Origin: Patescibacteria group bacterium
GTDB taxonomy: Bacteria; Patescibacteriota; Microgenomatia; UBA1406; GWC2-37-13
Reading direction: 5' to 3'
Length of the DNA: 43,222 nt
NCBI GenBank assembly: GCA_026416975.1
Contig: JAOAEC010000003.1
Coordinates: forward strand, 1 to 43,222
Shown here: positions 10,060 through 31,950 of the stretch, in pieces
Layout of the letters: every line of letters starts with the position of its first letter
How positions within the stretch are numbered: position 1 is the stretch's first letter
Made by a program: the position numbers and the translations under genes
Notes under the pieces: generated by a model
What the model was told of the DNA's origin: nothing
Databases searched by the model: none
Seen by the model: only the letters and a program-made list of their open reading frames with translations

Positions 10060-10213
10060 AACGTATAATATAGAATATGGAGCTTGGAACGCAGAACATA
10101 TAATATTAATAAAAAATGTCAAAAATCAAAACTAAAAACTTAAAACTAAAATCTAAAACCTTAAACAATTAATCCTTCTAACTCCTAACTACTAGCTACT
10201 AACTACTAAATTA
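10060..10213. repeat. Degenerate heptad-phased intergenic tract A (22 units)
   Basis: AACGTAT AATATAG AATATGG AGCTTGG AACGCAG AACATAT ... AACTAAA AACTTAA AACTAAA ATCTAAA ... TAACTCC TAACTAC TAGCTAC TAACTAC TAAATTA: constant 7-nt phase. Confidence 0.75.
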
Positions 10214-10391
10214 ATTTTTAATCAATAATTAATAAATTAATACTTTTAAAACCTTTAAATTTTTCTCACCTGTTATAATTTTCTAAACTCTTTCAACAAA
10301 CGCGTTCTATTTTATTTAAAGTTTAAAATTTAAATTAATCTAACACGCTAATCTGATATAGATTGTTATAATAAGATATTTTAAATATAGA

Positions 10392-28807: not shown

Positions 28808-29275
28808 TTGTTTGATAAAACAATGTTTGATTATAATAAAACTATGGTTAATAACAACAACTATACTCCTCTTAATGTTGATCAATTAAAAAAAAGGTTT
28901 GCCACCACCACTTTTGTGGGAAAACCAAAAGAAGCAGAACCAGTTATGGCCAAACCAGAGATGGCCGAAATTCAAGAGGTGGTGGAAAAAGAAACGCCAC
29001 CAGAAGTAAAACCATATGTTCAAAAAAGAGAAGAAACAATCAAACTCCCTCCTGATTTAAAAAAATTAGGTCTTCAACCAGTAAACACAACCAATTTTCC
29101 CCAGTATCAAAACCTAAAGTTGCCGATTAGCGATGAAAAAATTATTATTGGTCTTCGTGCGCCGGTCTCGTCTTCCCTTCGTTGGTTAGCCACTTTGGCT
29201 GTTTATCTTCTTAAAATGGCCCACATTCAATTAAAAACTATTCATGGCCATATTGTAAGAGTAATTAAAAATTAA
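28808..29275 (+). CDS. Hypothetical protein, Pro-rich with C-terminal hydrophobic region
   Basis: 155 aa ORF; start could be an internal ATG. Confidence 0.55.
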   Translation: MFDKTMFDYNKTMVNNNNYTPLNVDQLKKRFATTTFVGKPKEAEPVMAKPEMAEIQEVVEKETPPEVKPYVQKREETIKLPPDLKKLGLQPVNTTNFPQYQNLKLPISDEKIIIGLRAPVSSSLRWLATLAVYLLKMAHIQLKTIHGHIVRVIKN

Positions 29276-29889
29276 GGAGTTGGGGAAGTGTTGCTAAAAC
29301 CGGGAATCTTTAAAACACCATTAGCTAAAAGGTTGATAATAAAAACAGAAAAAACTGTAAAAAGAAGACCAATAATCGCTCCATAAATCACTCTTTTACC
29401 ATAATTAAGTTTTTCTGGCTCGTTTTGCGAGGTAAGAATAAGAAATGAGCCGTAAATAAAATAAAGAAGGGCAATTCCGCCAACAATGGAAAAAATAATA
29501 TCTAATAATTTTTTAACCAAACTGGCAGCCGCTCCTTCATTTTGAAAACTTCCCAGATCGGTTTTAATACAACCAATCATTGTATAGGTTCTTCCTGGTT
29601 TTGGTTGGGGAGGAAGACCGGTTTGGTCATCAATAATTAGTGTTTGGTTTCCTAAAGCGACACTATTATCAGGAAGAGTGGGAAAAATCTCTTCATATAA
29701 ACAAGCAGCGCATTTAGCCCAATCAGAAGGTGGATCATTATTAAGACAATAACCACACTGATCGCAAGTTGCCAGTCTGTCTTGAAATGCAGGAGTTGAG
29801 TCTATAGAAAAAACCCTATTTGGATAGATTAAAACAAAAAAATAAAAAAATATTAAAGATAACGTTAAAAATTTTTTAAAAAACTCCAT
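29272..29889 (-). CDS. VirB2/pilin-like membrane protein
   Basis: Signal peptide, Cys-rich segment, and two C-terminal TM helices (LVKKLLDIIFSIVGGIALLYFIYGSFLILTSQNEPEKLNYGKRVIYGAIIGLLFTVFSVFIINLLANGVL), typical of CPR T4SS pilin-like proteins. ORF track start is 29967; internal ATG preferred. Confidence 0.65.
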   Translation of the reverse strand: MEFFKKFLTLSLIFFYFFVLIYPNRVFSIDSTPAFQDRLATCDQCGYCLNNDPPSDWAKCAACLYEEIFPTLPDNSVALGNQTLIIDDQTGLPPQPKPGRTYTMIGCIKTDLGSFQNEGAAASLVKKLLDIIFSIVGGIALLYFIYGSFLILTSQNEPEKLNYGKRVIYGAIIGLLFTVFSVFIINLLANGVLKIPGFSNTSPTP

Positions 29890-29926
29890 AATTTTTAGTA
29901 TAACAAAAAACAGAGCATCAAATGTA

Positions 29927-30094
29927 AAACGTAGAACTTGGAACATAAAACTTAGAACGTAGAACATGAAACATAAAACAAAAAATCTCCCTTCATACTT
30001 AATACTTGATGCTTAATACTAATTTTAAAACTTTAAACAAAATAAATCCGAAATTCTAAATCCTAAATGCTAACTACTAACTACTAGCTCCTTT
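29927..30094. repeat. Degenerate heptad-phased intergenic tract B (24 units)
   Basis: AAACGTA GAACTTG GAACATA AAACTTA GAACGTA GAACATG AAACATA AAACAAA AAATCTC CCTTCAT ACTTAAT ACTTGAT GCTTAAT ACTAATT TTAAAAC TTTAAAC AAAATAA ATCCGAA ATTCTAA ATCCTAA ATGCTAA CTACTAA CTACTAG CTCCTTT. Confidence 0.8.
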
Positions 30095-30137
30095 TTATAA
30101 TTTTGCATTTTTCTTTTATCTCCTAACTCATAACTAA

Positions 30138-30241
30138 TATATCCAACTAACTCGAATTTACTTGCCTTAAAACACCGGAAAGGTGACCGGACGAACTCCC
30201 TTCAGGTGAAGAGAGTTTCAAATCTAAGTATAATGGGTATA
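30138..30241 (+). repeat. Dispersed ~104-bp intergenic element, copy 1
   Basis: TATATCCAACTAACTCGAATTTAC...GGTGACCGGACGAACTCCCTTCAGGTGAAGAGAGTTTCAAATCTAAGTATAATGGGTATA. Confidence 0.75.
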
Positions 30242-30264
30242 TATAATTAAATAATAATTAGCCT

Positions 30265-31950
30265 ATGAAACGATTATTAGTTTTTTTTCTTATTGTTTTT
30301 GGTCTGTTTTTTTTTCTTCAAAAAACCTTAGCTGAGTCGATTGATGATGAGATTGAAAAAATTAAACAAGAGTTAGGTGTTTTAAGTCAAAACTTAAAAG
30401 AAAAAGAGGCGGATTTTGAAAAGATTAATCAAAAACTTAATCAGATTAAAAATCAGGTTGTTTTAATTGAGCAGGAGATATTAAAAAAAGAGACTGAGGT
30501 AAAAAAAGGTGAGGTGGCTTTAGGTTATCAAAAAAAAATCCTTAATCTTAGAGCCGCATCATACTATAAAAACATTACTAAAAGTTCTTTTTCTCTTTTA
30601 TCTTTTATTGCTGCTGAAAATCTTGGTCGTTCGTTAGAAAACTTTTTTTATCAAAAGTTTCTGGTTGACGAAGACAGAAAAACGATTTTAAAAATTATTT
30701 TTTATATTAAGAATTTAGAAGAACAAAAAAAACTCTTAGAAGAAGAAAAAATCAATCTTGTTGCTTTAAAAAAAGAGGTTGATCGTCAGTCTAGGCTTTT
30801 AAACCAAGAGATTAGTCAAACCAGGGAAAAAATCGCCTCTCTTACTGCTCGTCAACAACAGCTTTTGGCGCAAAAATTGGCCTCTCTTAATATTCCTCGT
30901 TCTGCTGGAACCGGTCTTCGCGGCTGTGTTGATGATCGAGAAATTGATCCGGGTTTTTCGCCTCGTTTTGCTTTTTTCACCTTTGGCGTTCCTAACCGGG
31001 TCGGTTTAAATCAGTGGGGAGCAAAAGGAAGAGCTGAGGCCGGCCAAAACGCCGAAGAGATCCTCCGCGCCTACTATGAAAATTTTGAGTTAAAAAAAGA
31101 CTATGATACGGGTATTAATATTGAGGTTGAGGGCTTTGGTGTTTTTAACATTGAAGATTATTTAAAAAGAATCTATGAGATGCCGGCTGACTGGCCACTT
31201 GAGGCGCTTAAAGCCCAGGCAGTAGCTGCCCGTTCTTATGCTTTGGCTTACACTAATAACGGTACTCGTCCTATCTGCGCCACCGACTACTGTCAGGTTT
31301 TTAAGCCTGAGGAAAAAGGTGAACTATGGAATCAAGCGGTTGAAGAAACGCGCGGTTGGGTAATGATTCAAAACAACTCGCCCATTAAAGCCTGGTATTC
31401 ATCCACCCATGGTGGCTATATTTTTAACTCAACCGATGTTGGTTGGTTAAACGCCTCTTGGACAAAACACGGCCCCGATTATTCTGGTTCGGTTAACTCT
31501 TTTTCTGAACTCCAAAACAACGCCTACGACAAAAACTCACCTTGGTTTTATTGCGATTGGGGCTCAAGATCAGAATATAATAAAACCGCCTGGCTTAAAC
31601 CAGAAGAGGTGGCTGATATAGTCAATGTAATTTTATTAGCTCGCTATCTTTCTTTAGAAGATAAAGAGCATCTTTATCAGGTTGATAAACCTAATCCAAG
31701 TGGTAAAGAAATCTGGGACGCAAGCCGGGTAAAAAATGAGTTAATAAATCGAGGTAGTTCTTTTTTTTCAAGTATTAATCATGTTTCGGTGAATGTTGAT
31801 TTTGGTTATGGAAAAACCGTCTCCTTAACCTTTCAAGGTGATGGCGGAAGTGTTTCAATTGATGGTCGCGAGTTTAAAGACTGGTTTAATCTTCGCGCTC
31901 CTTCTAACATTCAAATCGTTGGCCCCTTGTATAATGTTGAAAAAAAATAA
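30265..31950 (+). CDS. Secreted coiled-coil plus SpoIID/LytB-domain protein
   Basis: Signal peptide, PcsB-like coiled coil, then NRVGLNQWGAKGRAEAGQNAEEILRAYYENFEL...EDYLKRIYEMPADWPLEALKAQAVAARSYAL...KAWYSSTHGGY (SpoIID). Confidence 0.9.
   Translation: MKRLLVFFLIVFGLFFFLQKTLAESIDDEIEKIKQELGVLSQNLKEKEADFEKINQKLNQIKNQVVLIEQEILKKETEVKKGEVALGYQKKILNLRAASYYKNITKSSFSLLSFIAAENLGRSLENFFYQKFLVDEDRKTILKIIFYIKNLEEQKKLLEEEKINLVALKKEVDRQSRLLNQEISQTREKIASLTARQQQLLAQKLASLNIPRSAGTGLRGCVDDREIDPGFSPRFAFFTFGVPNRVGLNQWGAKGRAEAGQNAEEILRAYYENFELKKDYDTGINIEVEGFGVFNIEDYLKRIYEMPADWPLEALKAQAVAARSYALAYTNNGTRPICATDYCQVFKPEEKGELWNQAVEETRGWVMIQNNSPIKAWYSSTHGGYIFNSTDVGWLNASWTKHGPDYSGSVNSFSELQNNAYDKNSPWFYCDWGSRSEYNKTAWLKPEEVADIVNVILLARYLSLEDKEHLYQVDKPNPSGKEIWDASRVKNELINRGSSFFSSINHVSVNVDFGYGKTVSLTFQGDGGSVSIDGREFKDWFNLRAPSNIQIVGPLYNVEKK

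Follow-up and report, generated by a model that had tools for sequence, protein, structure and literature searches.

A probable copy of a dispersed, non-coding heptad mosaic between divergent genes of a Patescibacteria group bacterium

The divergent gap and its heptad arrays

The stretch of DNA analysed here, 43,222 nucleotides in length and called the window in the following, is one contig (C33) of a 672-kb assembly of 43 contigs. Tract B, at positions 29927–30094, lies in the gap between two divergently orientated genes (Table 1). Inspection of the sequence reveals -10-like boxes for both of them, with TATACT at 29897–29902 on the minus strand for the left gene, and TATAAT at 30229–30234 and again at 30242–30247 for the right gene; a consensus scan of the 375-nt gap for promoters and terminators yielded no signal exceeding shuffled sequence and no significant promoter. 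The nominal left open reading frame (29272–29967) covers the first units of tract B solely through an upstream ATG, and the description of the tract as intergenic in the initial annotation is correct provided that the minus-strand gene begins at its ATG at 29889. To the right of the tract, positions 30175–30217 form a compact hairpin-like stretch (ACCGGAAAGGTGACCGG, AACTCCCTTCAGGTGAAGAGAGTT), of which no second full copy was found in the same genome.

Table 1. Coordinates of features in the window, and sites of the palindromic element of genome G006
Feature	Position	Strand	Description
Tract A, second mosaic copy in the window	10060..10221	+	71%, E 2e-14 (blastn, tract B as query); downstream of tmRNA, upstream of HU
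Left flanking gene	29272..29889	-	predicted membrane protein, signal-like N terminus
Whole divergent intergenic gap	29890..30264	.	375 nt
Array M1	29927..29982	+	about eight heptads, consensus RAACNTR
Junction, AAATCTCCCTTC region	29983..29995	+	common to copies C7 and C11; not heptadic
Array M2, ACTTAAT-like	29996..30023	+	two heptads more than C7/C11; register off M1 by 5
Linker, TTTTAAAACTTTAAACAAA region	30024..30042	+	common to other copies
Array M3	30043..30090	+	ATYCTAA, then CTACTAA/CTACTAG
Degraded right part of mosaic	30091..30148	+	T-rich/CTAACT-rich
Right flanking gene	30265..31950	+	ATG at 30265; coiled coil and SpoIID-like C-terminal part (sequence-based name)
G006 element sites	L088 4076-4253, 17633-17789, 19626-19753; L288 1971-2088; L312-L331		

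The strong period of 7 originally reported over 29927–30094 is borne out by autocorrelation. Shifted by 7 nt, tract B matches itself at 0.652, whereas dinucleotide shuffles give 0.318 ± 0.035 (z = 9.5). The values for shifts of 14 and 21 nt are 0.58 and 0.52, against ∼0.32 in shuffled sequence (z = 7.4 and 5.7, respectively), and none of 1000 shuffles attained a self-match of 0.65 at any lag between 3 and 30. The excess at multiples of 7 has disappeared by 35–42 nt and the match falls below background at 49–84 nt. The coherence of tract B is limited to ∼28 nt. The tract consists of three heptad arrays (M1, M2 and M3) and short junctions, with the arrays mutually out of register: the relative phases that give the best match between them are 5 and 2 instead of 0. 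The further claim that 24 consecutive 7-mers keep one phase had to be abandoned on account of these register shifts and the loss of the excess by 35–42 nt, and the count itself is uninformative because any 168 nt divides into 24 heptads. A phase of 7 nt over a long range was likewise rejected by the lag test and by the comparison across arrays. Units 8–10 of the original division (AAACAAA AAATCTC CCTTCAT) are a junction, and are heptads of neither adjoining array. Within M1, columns 2–4 are invariant (8/8) and column 6 is T in 7/8 units, with columns 1, 5 and 7 variable.

A dispersed mosaic family

With tract B as a blastn query, the genome that carries it yielded 57 matching places, of which the best reaches 76% over ∼145 nt. 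A profile of seven copies identified the long homologues C7, C11, C5, C22 and C39 and the shorter homologues C13 and C9, in addition to tract A of the window. Tract B thus belongs to a non-coding mosaic family that is dispersed through this genome in about nine copies; the initial annotation had considered tract B alone, and missed the recurrence of the same ordered mosaic at many loci. The order of modules in the alignment runs from the RAACNTR array through the AAAAATCTCC junction, the ACTTAAT array and the AAAACTNTAAA linker to the ATCCGAAATTCG array, AATCCTAAATG, the CTAACTACTAGC array and the AATTTCTAATTT array. Single copies lack some of these modules and keep the order of the remainder. 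In co-directional gene settings, copies are orientated both in sense (two) and in antisense (four).

As in small mobile elements, homologous copies of the family are present at many unrelated loci. A search, which was not exhaustive, detected no terminal inverted repeats at the ends of tract B, whose left end is an open-ended RAAC array, and no target-site duplication was identified in comparison with empty sites that are diverged and belong to other genera. The sole pair found by a repeat-pair search measures 15 nt (80%) and is internal to the tract. The arrival of tract B as a unit is therefore something that we infer, and the attachment role once suggested for it gains nothing from terminal repeats within the reach of that search.

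Array lengths differ by 7, 14 and 21 nt between tract B, C7 and C11, and most array gaps of at least 7 nt in the best-aligned copy pairs measure 7, 14 or 21 nt. When all copy pairs are pooled, the gaps show no excess of lengths divisible by 7, which we attribute to unreliable alignments between distant copies. M3 of tract B also lacks 32 nt found in C7, C11, C5 and C39, at a site between two AAATTC words, and this difference is best read as a putative microhomology deletion in tract B. Adjacent units in the arrays of this genome and its relatives share variant bases more often than permuted units (0.466 vs 0.375 ± 0.018), which points to slippage plus drift, by which units are duplicated and then diverge. 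The steps of 7, 14 and 21 nt between the closest copies and the sharing of variants by neighbouring units thus both support the repeated slippage or expansion proposed at the outset.

Mosaic copies can also hold a module with a period of 9 nt (TGATTTAACCGATTTAACTGATT; L072 3610–3670, L062 7450–7510 and L069 1150–1290), and period 7 is therefore not the sole period used. A second repeat family in the same genome, near-identical at C3 and C4, consists of AATGACAAAGAAAATTAAAAATCAAAAGTT followed by TTATACRTTA heptads (L068 1669–1840 and L074 994–1171).

The 295 kb sampled from this genome held 60 period-7 segments and the 334 kb sampled from its relatives held 38, against 0–1 in block shuffles; control periods of 5, 8, 10, 11 and 13 gave 0–4 segments, and periods of 6, 9 and 12 gave 5–16. 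The sampled stretches were mostly picked around matches, and genome-wide densities were not estimated from these counts. Four stretches of contigs picked without regard to matches (∼51 kb) contained two period-7 tracts and no overall lag-7 excess in their intergenic DNA; the tracts are therefore local and spread unevenly. Some of the other heptad tracts of this genome lie inside open reading frames. Heptad runs within long open frames were observed at L071 7230–9168, L070 9736–9840 and L062 1608–1732, where three units (21 nt) would mean seven extra codons.

Orthologous gaps and heptads in related genera

The protein encoded by the right gene has matches in 31 of 36 other genomes, and of the 29 orthologous loci examined, 24, from as many other genera, have the left partner next to the right gene. 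Heptads are missing from 23 of these 24 orthologous divergent gaps. In 21 of these genera the two gene starts are separated by an estimated ∼160 nt at most, against 375 nt here, and the remaining three gaps, of 193–319 nt, are also devoid of heptads. The short gaps often contain two -10-like boxes tens of bases apart, as seen by inspection. The sole heptad-bearing gap is that of G003 (L249), with a TAGTAGT-type run whose words are unrelated to those of tract B. In G016 (L223), four AATAATA units lie beside the divergent gap, within presumed signal-peptide codons of the left gene. All comparisons of orthologous sites are between genera, and therefore do not fix the timing of an insertion. The adjacency of tmRNA and HU that defines the site of tract A occurs in none of the other genera examined.

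Another copy, C39, sits between rpsG and fusA, in a gap of 251 nt here vs 6–159 nt in relatives. In several genera this gap contains heptads with words that differ from those of the present genome (ATTACGN, ATAACGY, GTAACAC and GTAACGT). Heptads were found in 5 of ∼14 rpsG–fusA gaps, against 3 of ∼82 other gaps (Fisher p = 0.0014; gaps of 58–400 nt passing a per-gap shuffle test, with the class chosen post hoc and the denominators tallied by eye). The rpsG–fusA gap, though picked post hoc, looks like a heptad hot spot with differing words and frequent hairpins across genera (L283–L311).

Hairpins are formed by the rpsG–fusA heptads of several relatives, with fold z-scores of -3.3 to -5.0 and, in some cases, a following run of T. 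More generally, the heptad tracts of relatives frequently consist of inverted pairs that fold strongly, and z falls below -3 in 9 of 29 of them, vs 2 of 50 in the present genome. G006 contains a sharply bounded, palindromic element of ∼120 nt that is built from heptads and present in at least 14 near-full-length copies (Table 1); most copies fill the space between adjacent genes, and one adjoins rpsG.

Unit words are shared with relatives at 46% vs 6.6%. A vocabulary common to distant phyla was considered and rejected, as words outside the RAACNTR pattern gave 0.06 vs 0.045 at random. At least 120 stretches from many phyla contain the RAACNTR pattern as such, a count made without a control and for which no enrichment is claimed.

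Origin of tract B and its relation to known repeats

We consider it likely that tract B belongs to a dispersed, non-coding repeat specific to this lineage, a mosaic of degenerate heptad arrays in fixed order, and that this copy was inserted between divergent promoters and is mostly neutral. The comparisons above establish the dispersal of the copies, their common module order, length differences, mostly by whole units, between the closest of them, and the short, heptad-free orthologous sites. Whole blocks would be copied to new intergenic places, and the present copy would have arrived as an insertion between two divergent promoters that lie close together in most relatives, pushing them ∼300 nt apart. 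Arrays inside the copy would then lengthen or shorten by whole heptads, through slippage or unequal exchange, and their units would drift through point mutation. The element would be mostly neutral, exerting at most a spacer effect on both promoters.

An alternative is that the arrays were born in place by local slippage of 7 nt, owing to replication or repair that favours loops of this size, and that no blocks were dispersed. An excess of heptads has been described in many unrelated bacteria (PMC6344855), and a hypothesis cited in PMC4692102 ties heptamers to the stretch of DNA that DNA polymerase holds, proposed to be 7 nt. The sharing of variants by neighbouring units would also fit, as would differing words at the same gap across genera, such as the unrelated heptads in G003. 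However, several loci of this genome share one order of unrelated modules, together with the same non-heptad junctions, and independent birth therefore does not account for the copies; we regard it as an unlikely origin. Equally tentative is the wider idea that the heptad arrays of this lineage are the bodies of small mobile or copied elements, in which periodicity, and sometimes a hairpin, is kept while words are replaced between genera; if true, some active mechanism would be needed to write or homogenise the 7-nt units of both arms.

The insertion of a mostly neutral mosaic is also preferred over an array bound by a protein at 7-nt spacing with its phase under selection. The invariant columns of M1, alternating with variable ones, are what such an array might look like, but register is lost between arrays, and the heterogeneity of columns across arrays barely exceeds random (0.70 vs 0.60), too weak for the degenerate positions to be retained as a binding code. 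The lack of heptads in all but one of the orthologous gaps and the change of words from genus to genus further make this improbable. The selection on 7-nt phase through protein wrapping that had been envisaged is also at odds with copies that face either way.

Still less probable is an RNA hairpin element that serves in termination, attenuation or processing, as suggested by the folded rpsG–fusA heptads of related genera and by the palindromic element in G006. The predicted RNA folds of tract B (z = -0.9) and of the C39 copy (z = +0.16) are nothing unusual, strong folds are rare among the heptad tracts of this genome, and Rfam covariance models matched nothing in the window beyond tmRNA and two tRNAs, leaving tract B unmatched. 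An RNA function for this copy appears unlikely, since copies occur in both orientations relative to genes and the apparent -10 boxes of both genes (located by inspection) are downstream of tract B, so that the tract is probably in neither transcript. That chance, low complexity of an AT-rich region or an assembly artefact produced the pattern is scarcely credible in view of the shuffle tests on the tract and on the sampled segments, and of a contig that runs on at both sides into genes that are syntenic in relatives.

Among short, non-coding, multicopy repeats, BOX, BIME, ERIC/RU and MITE-like families have ordered modules (BOX) or form intergenic palindromes (ERIC-like). To our knowledge, the bodies of these families are not heptad arrays. 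By description, the G006 element resembles ERIC-like palindromes between genes, and the family of tract B, for which no terminal repeats were found, is set apart from MITE-like families.

Intergenic heptamers are abundant in prokaryotes, with no established function (SPADE survey, PMC6344855), and intergenic tandem heptamer repeats of prokaryotes were described by Mrazek (2007, as cited in PMC4692102). Tract B is like these repeats in its period of 7, above chance over several units, in its tandem arrangement and in an intergenic position, which is mostly theirs too. The surveys deal with single arrays of one unit, whereas tract B is an ordered mosaic of several degenerate arrays belonging to a dispersed family. 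The TAACTGA repeats of Beggiatoaceae and cyanobacteria are, like the tract B family, intergenic heptamers at many loci, but they consist of one exact word, present in BOGUAY in 2–6 copies, for the most part immediately before start codons (PMC4679880). The words of tract B are degenerate, several in number and not tied to start codons, and TAACTGA was not found among its units (RAACNTR, ACTTAAT, ATYCTAA and CTACTAA). The GGGNATC heptamers of Xanthomonas and Nostoc share with the present repeats a heptameric unit, an intergenic position, some paired inverted copies and rapid length change between close species, but are G-rich with quadruplex potential (PMC4692102), in contrast to the AT-rich tract B with no G runs.

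Among the papers searched, in a collection covering few subscription journals, none was found to describe ordered mosaics of heptads, or palindromes built from them, for this lineage. Intergenic heptamers themselves have already been published (PMC6344855), and what is new are the ordered mosaics and, at orthologous gaps, the turnover of words. Dispersed ordered families, heptad-free orthologous sites and the replacement of words in the rpsG–fusA gap make a descriptive puzzle comparatively testable, and raise the questions of insertion versus birth in place, of drift versus selection, and of foldback forms as terminators.
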